A stretch of DNA of 37,581 bases from Fimbriimonas sp. (GTDB taxonomy: Bacteria; Armatimonadota; Fimbriimonadia; Fimbriimonadales; Fimbriimonadaceae), in NCBI GenBank assembly GCA_031292555.1, contig JARLGV010000134.1, positions 1 through 37,581 of the forward strand, in the 5' to 3' direction. Positions 216-8,712 of the stretch are shown here, one piece after another; the first letter of the stretch is position 1, and the number at the start of each line of letters is the position of its first letter. The position numbers and the translations under genes are program-made. The notes beneath the pieces are model-generated. The model was not told the origin of the DNA. It saw only the letters and a program-made list of their open reading frames with translations, and made no database searches.

Positions 216-1052
216 CTACAGGCCGGCGAACCAGTCGTAGCCTTGTTCGGCCCAGAAGTCGTTGGGTTGGTGGTCGGTATATGTGATCGAGCCAATTCGC
301 TTGATGTTCTTCACGCCGTACTTCACTGGGATGACGAGGCGAATGGGGGCGCCGTGCTCGATCGTGAGCGGTTCGCCGTTCATTTCATAGCACAAGAGCG
401 TCTGGGGGTGGAGAGCGCTGGCCATGTCTAATCCAACGTAGTAGCCGCCATCCGGGGTCGCCATACCGACATAACGGACGAGGTCCGATGGGTTGCCGAC
501 AACGTCGGGCTTATCCCCGGCTCTTGGCGAAGGCGGGTAGACCTTGGCGAATTCGACCATCGGGACGCCCTTCCACTCCACCTTCATGCTCCAGCCCTCG
601 ATGCAGCAGAACTCGGTGATCTGAGTGGCGGTTGGGAGCTTCTTGATGTCGTCGAGGGTCAACTGAACCGGAGCGTCCTTGCCGAACACGTTGTTTACGG
701 TCAAAGTCCACTGGCTCGGGTCGAAGTCGTCGTCTTTCATCCCCTCGTCGCCGTTTGTGCGCGGCGGCTTCGTGATCTCAGATGCCTTGAACGTCGGGGC
801 GAGTCTTTGCGGGCCGAAGTAGTCACCGGCGAGGCTGCCGTTAAAGTCGAGCACGCGCCGGAACGGCCAGGGTGCGCCTTGATCTTCAGTACGAGATGCG
901 AGCCAGCCGATTCCTTTGTAGGTGGCCAATGCAGCGATCCCAGCCCAAATGAAGCTGCGCCTGGAGATTCTCGACATCTTCCGCCGCGTTTCCGCGTTTT
1001 CGGCGGCGAAGCTGGGCTTTGATTCATTCGGAGAGGGAATGGAATCGCTCAT
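216..1052 (-). CDS. Tat-exported molybdopterin-dependent oxidoreductase (sulfite oxidase/MsrP-like family)
   Basis: This is a 278-residue protein of the sulfite-oxidase-fold molybdenum cofactor family, which carries out oxygen-atom transfer in the periplasm. A twin-arginine signal is visible at residues 30-36 (SRRSFIW), followed by a hydrophobic segment to about residue 52. The Mo-pterin domain starts near residue 110 (WTLTVNNVF). It contains the cysteine pair C149-C150 in EFCCIEGWS, one of which should ligate Mo, and ends with the family-typical block HGAPIRLVIP...KNIKRI at about 233-253. Start choice: the ATG at 1052 overlaps the stop of the upstream cytochrome gene as ATGA, which implies translational coupling. 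A longer frame upstream is only the shadow of that gene. With the membrane cytochrome it probably forms a two-subunit respiratory-type enzyme. The substrate cannot be read from sequence; sulfite, methionine sulfoxide or another oxyanion are all possible. Confidence 0.88.
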   Translation of the reverse strand: MSDSIPSPNESKPSFAAENAETRRKMSRISRRSFIWAGIAALATYKGIGWLASRTEDQGAPWPFRRVLDFNGSLAGDYFGPQRLAPTFKASEITKPPRTNGDEGMKDDDFDPSQWTLTVNNVFGKDAPVQLTLDDIKKLPTATQITEFCCIEGWSMKVEWKGVPMVEFAKVYPPSPRAGDKPDVVGNPSDLVRYVGMATPDGGYYVGLDMASALHPQTLLCYEMNGEPLTIEHGAPIRLVIPVKYGVKNIKRIGSITYTDHQPNDFWAEQGYDWFAGL

Positions 1053-1813
1053 CTCTTCTCCCCTTCCACGATCTCGTATCCGGTCACCATGGACCGAAAG
1101 TTGTTCCAGCCGGTCCGGATCACTTGGAAGACGTGAACCGTGAAGAACAGTACGAACAGCATCATCAACCAGAAGTGAAAGAACCGTGCGACCTCGTAGC
1201 CGCCGAGGAGTTGGGTGAACCGACTTGCCTGAATCGGCTTGTAGATGGCGATTCCGGTCACCAACGATCCGATACCCATCAGGACGACGCCGGTGTAAGC
1301 GAACTGCTGGGCGCCGTTGAACTTCCTTCGAGGCGGCGGGTCCTTTCGCAGGTGGAGGTCGTGCAGTACGACGTGAAGGGCCTCTGAGAACGACGAGCGT
1401 CTCGGCAGGATGTGACGCCATTCGCCGGAGATGGCGGTGTAGAGCACGTAGAGCACCCCGTTGATGGTGAAGATCCACGTGAAGAGGAAGTGCCACGACA
1501 TCCCTTCCGCAAGACGCTGGCTCAAAGTGTAGATCCCGGGGATGTTCTTCTCCTCGTTTGCTCCGGGCGCGTAGAATCCGCTCGGGAAGAACCTGAAGAA
1601 CTCGTGCCCGAACAGCGTAATCGTGTAGAGGCCCTTGTCCGGGGCGGCCGCCCAATAAATCAGGATTCCGCTCCAGACCATCACGAGCATGACCGGGAAG
1701 TTGATCCAGTGAAACCAACGAATCGCAAGCGGGTGCTTGTTCTCGATTTGGATCGGCGCCTGATCTTTCTGGGACAGTCGGCGCATTTTACGCTGCTTGA
1801 GGACTTGGATCAT
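1049..1813 (-). CDS. cytochrome b561-type membrane subunit
   Basis: This 254-residue integral membrane protein resembles the di-haem cytochrome b subunits of thiosulfate reductase, formate dehydrogenase and Ni-hydrogenase. Four hydrophobic helices are visible: near residues 30-55 (after AIRWFHWINF), 105-127 (MSWHFLFTWIFTINGVLYVLY), 170-190 (FAYTGVVLMGIGSLVTGIAIY) and 213-235 (FHFWLMMLFVLFFTVHVFQVI). Histidines inside or at the edges of helices 1, 2 and 4 are good haem-b ligand candidates. It is the first gene of a two-gene operon and its TGA overlaps the ATG of the molybdoenzyme by 4 nt. It is therefore expected to anchor that enzyme and exchange electrons between it and the quinone pool. The ATG at 1813 is used; a second ATG at 1786 is possible, and neither has a clear Shine-Dalgarno. 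Confidence 0.87.
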   Translation of the reverse strand: MIQVLKQRKMRRLSQKDQAPIQIENKHPLAIRWFHWINFPVMLVMVWSGILIYWAAAPDKGLYTITLFGHEFFRFFPSGFYAPGANEEKNIPGIYTLSQRLAEGMSWHFLFTWIFTINGVLYVLYTAISGEWRHILPRRSSFSEALHVVLHDLHLRKDPPPRRKFNGAQQFAYTGVVLMGIGSLVTGIAIYKPIQASRFTQLLGGYEVARFFHFWLMMLFVLFFTVHVFQVIRTGWNNFRSMVTGYEIVEGEKR

Positions 1814-1945: not shown

Positions 1946-3166
1946 ATGAAACCGCTTGTCGCGCTACGTAACCTTTTGATTGGCCTCGCCCTCGTGGCGC
2001 TATCGGGATGTGGGGGGGGAGGCGGCGGAACGCCGACTCCTCCGACGCACGGCGCGTGGACCCTGATGGTTTTCCTGAATGCCGCGAACGACCTCGACGC
2101 GTACAGCACGCTAAACGTCTTGCAGATGCAGCAGGCAGCGACGAACCCGGACGTTCGGATCGTCGTTCAGTGGAAGCAATCGAAGAAGGTAAGTGTCAAC
2201 GCCACCTTTAACGGCACCCGGCGCTACCTGATCAAGCAGAGCAATGGACCAAACGTCGTTAGCCAATTGGTCGAAAATATGGGGACCGGCGTCGATATGG
2301 GCGTGCCGCAAACGGTCAACCGTTTCGTCGCGTGGAGCAAAGCCCGATATCCGGCTGACCACTATGCGCTTGTCATGTGGGACCACGGAAGCGGTTGGCA
2401 GCGAATGGCGATCAAGGCCAGACAAAAGCCCAAGCCGTTGGCGGTGAGCCTAGACAGCGAGACCGGGCATTCGATCGAGACCTGGCAGTTGAACCAGGCG
2501 CTTCAGAACGAGCACGTCGATATCCTCGCCTTCGACGCGAGCCTGATGCAGATGGCCGAGGTCGCCTACCAACTTGTGGGTTCGGCAGATTACGTTGCCG
2601 GCAGCGAGGAGAGTCCTCCGGGAGACGGCTATCCGTATCAGAACGCCTTCGCGACTTTCGCGAACAACCCGACGGGGACGCCGGCATCGCTCTCCAAGGC
2701 ATTCGTCGACGCGATGACGCAGTATCCGCAATACGCTACTGACAAGATTGAGGAGAGCGTCATCGACACGTCGCAGATGGCGGGAGTCGCATCGGCGGCT
2801 TCGGCGTTGAGCGCGGCTATGATTGCGAACGCGGGAGCGATCGACGGGATTATTCCGCAGGCACGCTCGAACACCCAGGCCTATCTGCCTTCGAGCACCC
2901 AGTATTACTATGATGTGGTCGATCTCTGCCATCAGATTTCGGCCCTGACTGCCAACGCGCCGGTCCAAACGGCTTGCGCGAACCTCGCGACCGCCGTAGG
3001 CACGGCGGTGATCTGGGAGGGACACAACAGCCACTCTGCAGGTTCCCACGGCTTGTCGATCGACTTCTCGCCAAGCAGCTACTTCAAGGGCGTGAGCTCT
3101 GACTACACGCAACTGGCTTGGAGTACGCCTTCCGCTTGGGGGCAGTGGCTCGCCGTTGCCCCTTGA
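1946..3166 (+). CDS. C11/clostripain-like lipoprotein with Ser in place of the catalytic Cys
   Basis: This is a 406-residue exported lipoprotein. Residues 1-22 form a lipoprotein signal ending LSGC, followed by a Gly-rich linker. The fold is recognisable as peptidase family C11: WTLMVFLNAANDLD at 38-51 is the first strand and Asp cluster, and WDHGSGW at 145-151 carries the catalytic His (H147). The nucleophile block normally reads DACLM, but here it is FDASLMQMAEVAYQL, with S199 encoded by AGC at 2540-2542. The rest of the domain is intact through SADYVAGSEESPPGDGYPY (213-231). A bacterial C11 peptidase normally cleaves after basic residues using a His/Cys dyad. The substitution suggests a pseudoenzyme, perhaps a binding or inhibitory lipoprotein, or much less likely a Ser-using variant. 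The GGGAG site 5 nt upstream supports the start. Confidence 0.85.
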   Translation: MKPLVALRNLLIGLALVALSGCGGGGGGTPTPPTHGAWTLMVFLNAANDLDAYSTLNVLQMQQAATNPDVRIVVQWKQSKKVSVNATFNGTRRYLIKQSNGPNVVSQLVENMGTGVDMGVPQTVNRFVAWSKARYPADHYALVMWDHGSGWQRMAIKARQKPKPLAVSLDSETGHSIETWQLNQALQNEHVDILAFDASLMQMAEVAYQLVGSADYVAGSEESPPGDGYPYQNAFATFANNPTGTPASLSKAFVDAMTQYPQYATDKIEESVIDTSQMAGVASAASALSAAMIANAGAIDGIIPQARSNTQAYLPSSTQYYYDVVDLCHQISALTANAPVQTACANLATAVGTAVIWEGHNSHSAGSHGLSIDFSPSSYFKGVSSDYTQLAWSTPSAWGQWLAVAP

Positions 3167-3376: not shown

Positions 3377-3415
3377 TTGAGGATAATGATAACGTCGCTT
3401 TCCGGGGTTCTGCAA

Positions 3416-6400
3416 ATGCATGTTTCTACTCGTTTTGTTGGCTATCGCTTGCTCGTCGCGTTGGGAGCGTTGATCGCGACGTCAGGGGCGTTTGGCCAGA
3501 GCCCTCTGCCGATTCAGTGGTGCAATAGACTGATTGGAGCACCCCAGTGCTTGGCCGTGTCGCCCAATGGCTCGGTGATAGCGGTTGGGGGTGGGTCGAG
3601 CATCCAGATACTGGATGCGGTGACCGGCTCTGTCGTCCGCTGCATCCCGACGGTAGCGAACCAGGGAGTCTACTGCCTTGCCTTCTCGCCCGATGGAAAG
3701 ATGATCGCCGACGGGTGCCTCTCCGTGGACCCGGCTAACAATTTGAACAACGGCGTCATCGAGGTGTGGACGGTTTCGGACGCGCAGCCGGTCGCCACGC
3801 TCAAGTCAGTTCCTCATCAGTGGATCTGGGGTGTTGCCTTCTCGCCGGATGGAAAGAGCCTCGCCGACGTCGGGGAGATCGATGGCGCGACCTATAGCTC
3901 GTTTGTCGAGATCTGGGATATCGCCTCAGCCAACCTAGCTGCCAATTTCAACTCGAGAGCTCAGAACCTGTACTCCGTGGCGTTCTCACCGGACGGAACG
4001 CTCCTGCTTGACGGAGGTCGAACGATGAATGCGTCGAACCAGTACGTCGGCGTCCTTGAGACCTGGAATGTTGCGTCGAAGTCGTCGGCACAACAGTTTG
4101 CGACTACGGCAGCGCTCGGGGTCTACTCGGCGGCATTTTCGCCGGATGGACGTTCCATCGTGTCTGGAGGTCAGGGAACCGGTTCGACGACCGGGGTCTT
4201 GGAGTTATGGGACACCCCTTCGGGCGCCCTGCTCAAGTCCCTTCCGACCGGCATCTCCGGCACATCCAACAGTGGAATCTGGTCGGTTGCGTTTTCTCCC
4301 GATGGGACGACTATCGTCGATGGTGGCAACACCTTGCCCGGTACCTATAAGGGCTCCATTGAACTTTGGAATGCCGCGAGCGGAACCCGTCTCACCACTC
4401 TTCCTACGGTAGCGGATCGGCAAGTCGGAGGCGTCGGTTTTTCAAAGGACGGCGGAACACTTTACGATTGCGGCCAAGCGAACCCGAGCGGCTCAGTTGT
4501 CGAGGGCTGGAATATCGGCACCTATGGGCTAAAGTTCGGCGGCGCCCTCACGCAATTTGTGGACGCTCTGGGCATTGCTTTCTCTCCGGATGGGCAGACA
4601 TTAGCGGTGGCTGGCGGGACCTATGACTCGATTCTTGGACACTACATCGGCGGAGCCGTCGATCTTCGCGACGCGCACACCGGCGCATCGATCGCCTCGC
4701 TCAAAAGTGCGGCGACGCGTTTGATCTCTGTCGCGATGTCACCCGACAACACGACGCTCGCGTGTGGCGGAGTCTTTACGGACTCGTCGGGAACAAGCAC
4801 AGGCGTTCTGGAAATCTGGAACACATCCACTCAGACACGGATTGCGACCCTTGCCACGGCGGCGACGAACGTCCTCGCTTTGGCGTTTTCTCCCGATGGC
4901 AACACCCTCGCCGTCGGAGGCGGAGACCCGACATTCTTTCTCGGGACCGTGGAACTCTGGAGTCTGCAGACAGGCAAACGCATCGCAAGCCTGCCCACCA
5001 CCAACAATAAGTGGGTTAACACGCTGGCGTTCACGCCCGACGGTGGCGCTTTGGTCGAGGGCGGATACGGCTACAACACGGGAACGGGGAAGTCGCCACG
5101 ATTGATTGAGATGTGGGACGTGGCCTCCGGCACTCTCACCCGATCCCTTTCCACGAATGCCGATACAGTCACTGCACTCGCCATATCATCCGACGGAAGT
5201 TCCATGATCGATGTCGGCACGACATCCAACCAACCTAAGGGAGTGGTTGAGATTTGGAACCTGACGACGTATACAACGACGTCCAGCAGTGTCGGCGGAT
5301 CTCCCGTTAACGCGGTCGCGTACTCGCCTCAAGGGAACGTCTGTTTCTACGGGATTGATCGATTCCTATTTGCGGTAGATCCTGAAACCGGGAATCAGCT
5401 TGGGACCTACAAGTGGCCCTGCCAGAGCCTGGTCTGTTCGCCCGATGGAAGCCAGGTCGGGTTCCTGTCTTGGAGCGGGGAAATGATGGCAGAGAACCCG
5501 TTCTTTCTCGATCCGATTGCCAGCGTGTCGTTCCCATCGGGAACCGTTCAAGGTGGGAGCAGTCTGACGGGAACGGTCACCGTGCAGCAGCCAGCGCCAT
5601 CCTCCGGCACGGTCGTGAGTCTGACAAGCGATAGCAGCAACGCGTCGGTTCCAAGCACCGTGACCGTCACAGGCGGAGCCACGAGTGCGACGTTTACTCT
5701 AGCGACATCTGCCGTCTCGGGCGACACGACCGTGCACATCAAGGCGACGAACGCAACCGGTTCGCAGTCGGCGACCCTCACCATTTCGGCGGCCACACTG
5801 GCTGCACTAAGCCTAAGCCCGAACGAGAGTGTCGGTGGCAACCCGTCGACTGGCGTGGTTACTTTGTCCGGCCCTACTGGGCCGAAGGGCACCGTCGTGA
5901 CACTTTCTAGCAGCGATCCGGCGGCGTCGGTTCCCACTTCGGTCACGGTCGCGGCGGGGCAGACATCGGCCACTTTTGGAGTAACTACCGGTGCAGTCGG
6001 CCAGGACACCACGGTCGTGATCAGCGCGACCTTGGGCGGCAAGAGCGAAACCGCAAACCTGACGCTTCATCCGGCCGGGCTTGCCTCGATCATGGTGGGA
6101 CCGTCCTCAGGAAACGGCGTCGCTATCGGAACCGTCCAGCTCAGCGGAAAGGCAAAGGCTGGAGGATTCGCCCTCACGTTGTCGAGCAGCAACGCCACCG
6201 CTGCCAAGGTGCCCGGCGTTCTCACGATTCCTGCCGGCAAGAGCACAGGATCGTTCAATGTGACCGAGTCGGCGGTTTCGAAATCGATCACCGTCACGAT
6301 CACCGCCAAGGCAGGCAATACTTCCAGGTCGACGACGCTCACGATGAGCCCTCCGGTCCTGGACGGCCTTACCCTCAATCCAAATTCCGTGATTGGAGGT

Positions 6401-7198
6401 TCGCCTTCGACAGGCACGTTGACTTTGTCAGGGCCGACCCCTTCAGGCGGAATGATCGTCAGCTTGGCGAGCAAGAACTCGGCCGTCAAGATTCCGGCGA
6501 CGGTTATGGTCGCCGCCGGCAAGAGTTCCGCGACTTTTGCCGTCACTACTCAGCCGGTCGCCTCTCAGAAGCCGGTCACGATCCAGGCCACCCTATTTGG
6601 TACGACGAAGACGGCGACCTTAACCGTGAATGCTCCGACACTTGTATTGGTCAGCCTGACTCCGGCATCGGTTATCGGCGGCCACGGAGCAACGGGAGCG
6701 ATTTCGTTCAGCGGACCTGCTCCAGCAGGCGGGCTAAATGTCAAGGTGTCGAGCAGTTCAACTGCCGCGACGACGCCGGCTTCTGTATCGGTCGCGGCCG
6801 GCAAGAGTTCGGCGACGTTCGATGTCTCGACGGTACCGGTCGGAAGCGATGTGAAGGCGACGATCTCCGCTCAATCTGGATCGGTCACGAAGACGGTATC
6901 GCTTACGGTTCAGGCACCCAGCCTAAAGGCCCTCACACTCAGTCCTAGCCAGGTGACGGGTGGCAAGTCGAGCACGGCGACGCTGAGCATCACCTCCGCC
7001 GCCCCGAGCGGCGGCCTCAAGGTCTCGATGTCGAGCAGCCTGGCGGCGGCAAACGTGCCCTCCTCGGTCACGATCCCGGCGGGAAAAACGATCGCCACCT
7101 TCAGCATACAGACGAAGAAGGTCACCGGCAAGTCCGAGGCTACGATCGGAGCAACGCTGGGGAGCCAAACCAAGTCGGCAGTGTTGACGATCTCTTAA
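3416..7198 (+). CDS. secreted WD40 beta-propeller protein with six C-terminal Ig-like repeats
   Basis: This 1260-residue exported protein starts with a signal peptide (MHVSTRF... to about GAFGQ, residue 28). Residues ~30-700 hold 13-14 WD40-type repeats, each with an AFSPDG-type turn (AFSPDGKMIADG, AFSPDGRSIVSGG, AFSPDGNTLAVGGG) followed by a xxEIWD/xxELWN strand. That number suits two seven-bladed propellers. Residues ~700-1260 hold six Ig-like repeats of about 94 residues with the signature SLSPxSVxGGxxSTGxxxLSGPxPxGG...VPxSVTVxAGxxSATF. No catalytic motif is visible. A cell-surface binding or scaffold role is inferred. Start: the frame extends to a TTG at 3377 and an ATG at 3386, but the ATG at 3416 gives the cleanest signal peptide. 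It ends 33 bp from the convergent GNAT gene. Confidence 0.83.
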   Translation: MHVSTRFVGYRLLVALGALIATSGAFGQSPLPIQWCNRLIGAPQCLAVSPNGSVIAVGGGSSIQILDAVTGSVVRCIPTVANQGVYCLAFSPDGKMIADGCLSVDPANNLNNGVIEVWTVSDAQPVATLKSVPHQWIWGVAFSPDGKSLADVGEIDGATYSSFVEIWDIASANLAANFNSRAQNLYSVAFSPDGTLLLDGGRTMNASNQYVGVLETWNVASKSSAQQFATTAALGVYSAAFSPDGRSIVSGGQGTGSTTGVLELWDTPSGALLKSLPTGISGTSNSGIWSVAFSPDGTTIVDGGNTLPGTYKGSIELWNAASGTRLTTLPTVADRQVGGVGFSKDGGTLYDCGQANPSGSVVEGWNIGTYGLKFGGALTQFVDALGIAFSPDGQTLAVAGGTYDSILGHYIGGAVDLRDAHTGASIASLKSAATRLISVAMSPDNTTLACGGVFTDSSGTSTGVLEIWNTSTQTRIATLATAATNVLALAFSPDGNTLAVGGGDPTFFLGTVELWSLQTGKRIASLPTTNNKWVNTLAFTPDGGALVEGGYGYNTGTGKSPRLIEMWDVASGTLTRSLSTNADTVTALAISSDGSSMIDVGTTSNQPKGVVEIWNLTTYTTTSSSVGGSPVNAVAYSPQGNVCFYGIDRFLFAVDPETGNQLGTYKWPCQSLVCSPDGSQVGFLSWSGEMMAENPFFLDPIASVSFPSGTVQGGSSLTGTVTVQQPAPSSGTVVSLTSDSSNASVPSTVTVTGGATSATFTLATSAVSGDTTVHIKATNATGSQSATLTISAATLAALSLSPNESVGGNPSTGVVTLSGPTGPKGTVVTLSSSDPAASVPTSVTVAAGQTSATFGVTTGAVGQDTTVVISATLGGKSETANLTLHPAGLASIMVGPSSGNGVAIGTVQLSGKAKAGGFALTLSSSNATAAKVPGVLTIPAGKSTGSFNVTESAVSKSITVTITAKAGNTSRSTTLTMSPPVLDGLTLNPNSVIGGSPSTGTLTLSGPTPSGGMIVSLASKNSAVKIPATVMVAAGKSSATFAVTTQPVASQKPVTIQATLFGTTKTATLTVNAPTLVLVSLTPASVIGGHGATGAISFSGPAPAGGLNVKVSSSSTAATTPASVSVAAGKSSATFDVSTVPVGSDVKATISAQSGSVTKTVSLTVQAPSLKALTLSPSQVTGGKSSTATLSITSAAPSGGLKVSMSSSLAAANVPSSVTIPAGKTIATFSIQTKKVTGKSEATIGATLGSQTKSAVLTIS
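5517..7195 (+). repeat. six tandem ~282-bp Ig-like coding repeats
   Basis: Inside the WD40/Ig-like gene the coding sequence repeats with a period of about 276-287 bp, with unit starts near 5517, 5798, 6085, 6361, 6643 and 6925. Each unit encodes one Ig-like module that opens with LxLSPxxVxGG and carries (V/I)PAGKSSATF near its middle. Units are diverged in sequence, so they are old domain duplications rather than recent DNA expansion. Confidence 0.75.
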
Positions 7199-7748: not shown

Positions 7749-8591
7749 TCACATCTCCGATTGCCTTCCACGGATCGAGAGGTTGAAGACGCTGAGCATT
7801 ACGCGATGGGCGGAGAGGAGGTCGGGCCGGACCCACTCCAAGGTATAGGCGTCCAAACGGGAAACACCTTCCATGAGGGCAGGTAGGTCGGCCTCCTCCG
7901 CCGTCCGAAACTGGGCGCGCATGGTCACTAGTCCGGATACGACGAAAGGAGCGATTTTTGTTGCCGCTGAAACCGCTCGGATTGCCGCTGCCTCGATTCC
8001 GGGACCGGTTTCCGAAGGGTGCTTAGCCCAGCCCATGTATCGTCCGAAGCCTGTCTTGGTCGAGTAGGTTTCGATTCCGGCGACACACGCTGTCGCCTCG
8101 GCGCATGTCTCATCGTCACCGGTCACGAGAACGGTAGGAACGCCGTACGCACCGGCAACCGCACTGCTGATCGCGATCTCGCCTACCTCGGTTCCGTTGA
8201 GCCAGAATCGATGAAGGCCCCCAACGAGGGCATGATCCATCATGGCGTGCAGCGCTCCCGCCATCCCGTGGTAGCCGATCAGCATGGCGGCGCCGAAGGT
8301 CGCGTCGATGCCGTCCATCATCCCGTCCTTGCCCGCCCCGGTGCCGGAGATCAGCTCGGTACCTGTCTCCAGTTCGTCGCCGAGAAGGTTCTTGCAGTTG
8401 GCATGGGAGTCCTTGACCACGACTCGCTTGGCTCCGGCCGCGCGCGCTCCCCGGATCGCGGCATTCACGTCGGCGGTGAGCATTCGGCGGGCAAATGGAA
8501 AATCGTAATGGTCGCTACTTGGTCGTCCGCACTGGGAGAACGATGTAACACCGGTCGCCCCCTCGATATCGACCGAGATGTAGACGTTCAT
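7749..8591 (-). CDS. M55 family D-aminopeptidase (DppA-like)
   Basis: This 280-residue cytoplasmic zinc peptidase is related to Bacillus DppA, which releases D-Ala from short D-amino-acid peptides and forms a self-compartmentalising decamer. The metal-site pattern is complete: D8 and E10 in SVDIEGATG, H63 in KDSHAN, H108 in IGYHGMAG and E135 in NGTEVGE. These positions nearly match the known family ligands. The start ATG at 8591 (MNVYISVDIEG) gives the family-typical N-terminus; longer in-frame starts add an unrelated tail. A TACAAT hexamer ends 7 nt before the ATG, so the transcript may be leaderless. The GNAT gene follows by one base, suggesting a two-gene operon for peptidoglycan- or peptide-derived D-amino acids (inference). 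Confidence 0.9.
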   Translation of the reverse strand: MNVYISVDIEGATGVTSFSQCGRPSSDHYDFPFARRMLTADVNAAIRGARAAGAKRVVVKDSHANCKNLLGDELETGTELISGTGAGKDGMMDGIDATFGAAMLIGYHGMAGALHAMMDHALVGGLHRFWLNGTEVGEIAISSAVAGAYGVPTVLVTGDDETCAEATACVAGIETYSTKTGFGRYMGWAKHPSETGPGIEAAAIRAVSAATKIAPFVVSGLVTMRAQFRTAEEADLPALMEGVSRLDAYTLEWVRPDLLSAHRVMLSVFNLSIRGRQSEM

Positions 8592-8598
8592 TGCGACT

Positions 8599-8604
8599 AT
8601 TGTA
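8599..8604 (-). promoter_or_regulatory. candidate -10 element for the M55 gene (leaderless)
   Basis: TACAAT on the - strand is followed by 7 nt (agtcgca) and then the ATG at 8591. Transcription starting at the usual distance would place +1 at or next to the ATG. No Shine-Dalgarno is present. No good TTGACA-like -35 is visible. Confidence 0.45.
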
Positions 8605-8712
8605 TAGGGCGCCGACACTCGAAATCGAATCATTATGTGCATTAGCTGCATTTGTTCTTGTATTTGGGTCTTCCGCTTCAATTTCGCGCGAAACCTGCTT
8701 ACGATTGCCGCG

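Follow-up and report, generated by a model that had tools for sequence, protein, structure and literature searches.

Family C11 (MEROPS C11, clan CD; PF03415) includes clostripain and PmC11. According to a 2025 review, all eight families of clan CD are cysteine peptidases, with a His-Cys pair throughout (PMC12445089), and a MEROPS guide names PA, PB, PC, and PD as clans of mixed catalytic type (PMC7737757). The specificity of C11 peptidases for Arg or Lys at P1 is set by an aspartate in the S1 pocket, namely, Asp177 in PmC11 (PMC4850288) and Asp229 in clostripain (PMC11296011); the pocket residues of PmC11 are Asp177, Thr204, Met205, and Asp207, and the protein cleaves itself at Lys147 (PMC4850288).

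Several proteins are known in which serine takes the place of a catalytic cysteine. In family C14, pseudo-orthocaspases and the trypanosome metacaspases TbMC1 (HS) and TbMC4 (YS) carry Ser for Cys on the clan CD fold; in the part of the source on which we draw, the HS and YS variants are considered inactive, as are the commonest orthocaspase variants, which lose the His too, pseudo-orthocaspases are described as keeping an acidic specificity pocket, and Ser/Cys interchange is not reported (PMC6426788). SERA5 of Plasmodium likewise has a Ser at the Cys position, with the other catalytic residues kept and the Ser conserved in its subgroup, but belongs to a different, papain-like clan and fold, coexists with Cys-type family members, and has been shown to be non-enzymatic, with undetectable activity and tolerance of Ala in this position (PMC4671257). 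A natural Ser/Cys exchange on one fold also exists in clan PA (chymotrypsin-like Ser and picornain-like Cys proteases); there, however, the fold is different and the exchange is between families, whereas the exchange described here occurs within one family and even within one genus.

The window, that is, the whole 37,581-nucleotide stretch of Fimbriimonas sp. DNA that was analyzed (contig JARLGV010000134.1), contains a gene for a C11 homolog with serine in the nucleophile position (hereinafter, the S199 protein). It probably belongs to a serine-nucleophile, putatively catalytically active branch of the C11 fold that extends across Armatimonadota; rather than a dead copy, it is probably a variant that uses Ser in an otherwise all-cysteine protease clan.

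A C11-fold lipoprotein with a Ser-His dyad

The gene starts with ATG and encodes a 406-aa protein (ORF listing), which matches the Peptidase_C11 profile PF03415 over positions 1-352 of 359 (Pfam search, E = 2.1e-43), with a score of 149.7 bits compared to the gathering cut-off of 25.8; it is the sole C11 gene in its genome. The relatives with sequence similarity in the PDB are clostripain and the C11 proteases of Bacteroides and Parabacteroides. The AlphaFold2 model (mean pLDDT 88.4, pTM 0.88) aligns with clostripain (9cip) over 353 residues at Z 40.0, including the C-terminal domain; other full-length C11 structures match the model at Z 34-37 and PmC11 chain B at Z 19.6, and asparaginyl ligases are found among the structural matches as well. 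The features of the gene are as follows.

1946..3166, + strand: gene of the predicted serine-type C11-fold lipoprotein, 406 aa (ORF, PF03415, model, Z to clostripain)
1946..2011, + strand: signal peptide with lipobox L-S-G-C, C22 being the lipidated Cys by the lipobox rule; a Gly-rich linker follows
2087..2092, + strand: N48-D49; N48 corresponds to Asn50 of the PmC11 S1 pocket by motif inspection (column counts, PMC4850288)
2378..2398, + strand: WDHGSGW (residues 145-151), with H147 at 2384-2386 (His in all Ser rows)
2393..2443, + strand: loop L5 (residues 150-166), modeled with low confidence; Leu at position 165 (2438-2440) (column counts, structural alignment, pLDDT)
2534..2536, + strand: D197, S1-pocket Asp (column counts; PMC4850288, PMC11296011)
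2540..2542, + strand: S199 (AGC), putative nucleophile replacing the C11 Cys (alignments, codon read)
2600..2638, + strand: substrate loop GSEESPPGDGYPY, residues 219-231, with S223-P224 at 2612-2617 (column scans; positions 224, 225, and 227 on PmC11 Thr204, Met205, and Asp207)

A reading made from the sequence alone had noted a DASLM motif with S199 encoded by AGC at 2540-2542, and an intact WDHGSGW motif, fold, and gene length. Direct reading of the codon, which lies within FDASLMQM (residues 196-203), bears out the former, and the profile and structural matches bear out the latter. S199 falls in the nucleophile column when aligned to the profile with Cys homologs, and on Cys179 of PmC11 in a gapless alignment in which D197, P224, P225, and D227 match Asp177, Thr204, Met205, and Asp207, respectively. 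The catalytic His is H147, followed by G148, so that S199 and H147 occupy the C11 catalytic columns as a Ser-His dyad: only the Cys of the dyad is replaced, by another nucleophilic residue, and the His is retained.

By the lipobox rule, the S199 protein would be an outward-facing lipoprotein. In most of its relatives, the lipobox and the C11 domain are separated by approximately 200 additional residues that look Ig-like by eye; the S199 protein lacks these. With clostripain and PmC11, it shares the whole-domain fold, the catalytic His, the S1 Asp, and the position of the substrate loop; it differs in the Ser nucleophile, in the SP dipeptide at two S1-loop positions, in being a predicted lipoprotein, and in lacking Arg or Lys at the autocleavage position. 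Given that the defining Cys of D(A/S)C is replaced, with DAS found instead, we do not place the protein among the C11 cysteine peptidases but classify it as a putative serine-type variant of the fold.

Serine is widespread among C11 homologs of Armatimonadota

A search of 291 Armatimonadota genomes yielded relatives in 204. Initially, 141 homologs were aligned; with the addition of Elusimicrobiota, Myxococcota, Planctomycetota, and a few others, the alignment grew to 287 rows, which include some overlapping fetches of the same gene and were thinned to 204. In the nucleophile column, the 287 rows contain 127 Ser, 157 Cys, and 3 other residues. All Ser rows come from Armatimonadota, from 116 genomes in 21 family groups and 72 genus groups, which rules out a Ser peculiar to one gene or one genus; none was detected among the 120 rows sampled outside Armatimonadota, all of them from the added groups named above. 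The catalytic His is present in each of the 127 Ser rows. The thinned set comprises 109 Ser and 92 Cys rows; among the Ser rows, H147, D197, and S223 are all invariant (109/109 each), and S223 occurs in 6 of the 92 Cys rows. A nucleophile at a different Cys, the alternative raised in the sequence-only reading, is ruled out: the Ser rows have no conserved Cys column, the best one being occupied in 52 of 109.

The three rows with other residues at the nucleophile position (Pro, Asp, and Gly) have lost the His too (Arg, Arg, and Thr, respectively), and this paired loss of the dyad shows what real loss looks like in the C11 family.

Decay of the S199 gene, or an error of sequencing or assembly, is suggested by AGC being a single base away from TGC, and we assign it a negligible probability. 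Sequencing error is excluded by the presence of Ser in the same column in homologs from 115 other genomes; the gene has no stops, and close Ser relatives, compared in unsaturated pairs, give dN/dS values of 0.03-0.23. Purifying selection on the Ser-type genes is strong.

No viral relatives of the S199 protein were found; plasmid matches are distant (<33% identity) and, among the matches listed, most are annotated as Cys peptidases. In the open-access literature, we found no report of Ser-type C11 proteins.

Several other C11 genes were observed in the course of the search. One Armatimonadota genome (G214) encodes, in addition to one Ser-type and one Cys-type copy, two paralogs (L191 and L200) with Arg/Asp and Thr/Gly in place of both catalytic residues. 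In an Elusimicrobiota protein (L205, genome G298), DRG and DAP replace DHG and DAC, and this is likely a pseudopeptidase; some Elusimicrobiota genomes contain up to 12 C11 matches. A contig labeled as a Bifidobacterium breve MAG (L042) encodes a C11 protein with a close relative in an uncultured proteobacterium (L041), and is probably misbinned.

Repeated interchange of serine and cysteine

When the nucleophile column is omitted, 6 Ser/Cys changes are required on a tree of 123 rows, and branches with good support force 5 of these. The wider, 204-row tree, from which columns 147, 199, 223, and 224 were omitted, requires 9 changes (7 forced), and a careful 80-row tree requires 6 (5 forced). Ser lies on one side of a branch in 0% of the bootstrap trees of the 80-row set, so a single clean Cys-to-Ser origin without interchange is rejected. 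Ser and Cys seem to trade places repeatedly in the evolution of C11. Although the change counts give no direction, the outgroups are Cys, and the simplest reading is, therefore, a Cys-to-Ser change early in Armatimonadota followed by several Ser-to-Cys changes. A second, small Ser group, from families f17, f18, and f37 (L178, L179, L180, and L193), with the loop SQLSEPNDGYPY, lies outside the main Ser clade and may represent a separate Cys-to-Ser origin.

The genus that includes the S199 gene contains both forms. C11 genes are present in 19 of its 20 genomes, in 18 of these as a single gene, with 12 Ser and 6 Cys among the single genes; two of the latter (G082 and G089) belong to a longer, distant subfamily. 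The remaining genome (G084) carries a tandem pair, one Cys-type (L148; ACDACDMQ, loop EELTP) and one Ser-type (L297; SWDASLMQ, loop EESPP), and is a ready-made natural pair for Ser/Cys comparison. Four Cys proteins of the genus (L073, L079, L088, and L089), each likewise the single C11 gene of its genome, form the sister clade of the clade of the S199 protein in the 80-row tree, with 100/95 support for the joint node; they differ in the TGC or TGT nucleophile codon, the lack of S223-P224, and the longer frames (~590-650 aa).

These relationships alter the view of the S199 gene itself. The catalytic Cys had been read as changed to Ser in this gene, by one base from DACLM; instead, Ser is the inherited state of its clade and appears ancestral, and the AGC/TGC step more likely runs from Ser to Cys in the sister clade. 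An alignment across the phylum had been proposed as a check on whether Ser is fixed in a clade: Ser is indeed inherited in the clade, but Cys proteins are nested among the Ser proteins at least five times.

Both Ser codon boxes are used in the 127 rows (AGC 62, AGT 11, TCG 36, TCA 7, TCC 7, and TCT 4; altogether, 73 AGY and 54 TCN), with approximately 9 switches between AGY and TCN on the 204-row tree. Switching between the boxes takes a tandem change of two nucleotides (PMC6872785) or passage through an intermediate, and TGY (Cys), which is seen here, is one of the possible intermediates. The codon pattern fits a position where Ser and Cys would both work and other residues would not.

A two-residue signature in the substrate loop

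Of the 362 columns compared in the first scan, just three (199, 223, and 224) fully separated the Ser rows from the Cys rows, the next column differing by 0.66. S223 is present in 127 of 127 Ser rows and in 8 of 157 Cys rows, and P224 in 123 of 127 and 1 of 157, respectively; the exceptions are SP in one Cys row and SE in four Ser rows. On the 204-row tree, S223 tracks Ser in all 6 of the independent contrasts, with a median p of 0.031, and P224 does so in 5 of 6. The loop, GSEESPPGxGY, corresponds to the S1 loop of PmC11, and we read S223-P224 as a putative accommodation of the Ser nucleophile or of its substrate. Column comparison found no acid column specific to the Ser rows that would complete a triad; D49 is commoner in Ser rows, yet not specific to them.

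A Ser-specific change in the S1 loop could also mark a new substrate, and peptide ligases occur among related clan CD folds, as with the asparaginyl ligases in the structural matches. Ser199 might accordingly perform chemistry other than protein hydrolysis, as an esterase, a transpeptidase or ligase, or a single-turnover self-cleaving protein. We consider this improbable: the S1 Asp together with Arg165 (see below) points to the ancestral chemistry on basic peptides, and, within the genus, the sole C11 gene of a genome can be of the Cys form in place of the Ser form.

The putative activation site in loop L5

Residue 166 of the model aligns structurally with residue 148 of PmC11, which places position 165 on the autocleavage residue Lys147, within a loop that has the lowest confidence of any inner part of the model. 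Position 165 is Arg or Lys in 97 of the 106 Ser rows that keep D170 (92%), compared to 0-26% at the flanking positions, and in 70-72% of the Cys rows. Retention of this residue is most readily understood if self-cleavage still takes place in the Ser proteins. The S199 protein has Leu165, and Arg165 is gone in its three nearest relatives too, which suggests an alternative activation, or none, in these proteins; several Lys and Arg residues are still present in the loop. An activation Lys or Arg is not universal in active C11 peptidases, given that PNT1 has Ala there (PMC4850289).

Catalytic serine or pseudopeptidase

From sequence, predicted fold, phylogeny, selection, and co-variation, we infer catalysis, specificity, and activation as follows. 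In the explanation that we prefer and consider fairly likely, the S199 protein is a C11-fold lipoprotein in which Ser199 is the nucleophile, His147 the base, and Asp197 the residue that selects Arg or Lys in the S1 pocket. With His147 as the general base, Ser199 would attack the peptide carbonyl, next to an Arg or Lys held at P1 by Asp197, to form an acyl-ester that water would release; S223-P224 in the S1 loop would be the accommodation that accompanies Ser. Most of the relatives would free their own active site by cutting L5 after Arg165, whereas the S199 protein and its nearest relatives might use another basic residue of L5, rely on another protease, or remain uncut.

The main competing explanation is a selected pseudopeptidase, in which the intact S1 pocket would serve to bind basic peptides or sites and Ser199 would prevent turnover, making the protein a receptor or scaffold similar to SERA5. 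SERA5 and the trypanosome HS and YS variants are precedents, the S1 Asp and the fold are conserved, and the autoactivation Arg is absent from the S199 protein. Against this explanation, there are at least five nested Ser/Cys interchanges, with no other residue seen while the His is intact; real loss in the family takes both dyad residues; the genome encodes no second C11 protein that could be its active partner; and Arg165 is retained in 92% of the Ser relatives. On balance, we regard a pseudopeptidase as rather unlikely, though clearly less so than a different Ser chemistry.

The precedents point in both directions. Directed evolution of TEV protease showed that a Cys-to-Ser swap is recoverable and that the enzyme stays nucleophile-permissive (PMC4576821), which we count in favor of a catalytic Ser; the plain C136S replacement in the C11 relative PNT1 killed function (PMC4850289), and this we count against it, along with the undetectable activity of SERA5 and the perceived inactivity of the metacaspase variants. 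Also to be counted against it are the absence of Arg165 in the S199 protein, the lack of a Ser-specific triad acid column, the exceptions to S223-P224, and the assignment of two Cys genes of the same genus, those of G082 and G089, to a different, longer subfamily. D197 by itself proves nothing about catalysis because pseudo-orthocaspases are reported to retain an acidic pocket. Nevertheless, several findings favor a catalytic Ser over a pseudoenzyme: Ser interchanges repeatedly, and with Cys alone; the His is intact; one form stands in for the other as a single-copy gene within the genus; the loop change is linked to Ser; and most Ser relatives retain Arg165. The sequence-only reading had left the choice between a pseudoenzyme and a changed chemistry, as opposed to decay. 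The rejection of decay holds, given the dN/dS values and the universal His; of the two remaining options, changed chemistry is favored, given that only Ser and Cys occur with an intact His, that both Ser codon boxes are used, and that a loop residue co-varies.

For the phylum as a whole, we put at somewhat better than even the chance that Armatimonadota carry active Ser peptidases of the clan CD fold, in which the nucleophile toggles between Ser and Cys within a genus and two residues of the S1 loop switch with it. If so, clan CD would become a clan of mixed catalytic type. How a nucleophile can be swapped without a dead intermediate is an open evolutionary question that so far has been studied largely by directed evolution. 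The C11 proteins form a natural series in which the swap has occurred several times independently, Ser and Cys occur as single-copy genes in one genus, and the loop that co-varies is known, making the question directly testable with a few proteins and point mutants. As a guess, Ser could be better suited than a thiol to an oxidizing, aerobic surface, but a strict need is hard to reconcile with the Cys forms found in the same genus.

Gene neighborhood

Two neighboring regions, one on either side, are kept beside the C11 gene in three close relatives, their names being assigned by sequence reading.

216..1813, - strand: molybdopterin-oxidoreductase-like and cytochrome b561-like genes
7749..8681, - strand: DppA-like (M55 D-aminopeptidase-like) gene, downstream neighbor

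At 14 more distant loci, none of these three genes lies beside the C11 gene. Another gene of the window, at 3377-7198 (+), which does not adjoin the C11 gene in the relatives checked, encodes a secreted protein of 1273 aa in which WD40-like repeats precede several Ig-like repeats, as identified by eye.
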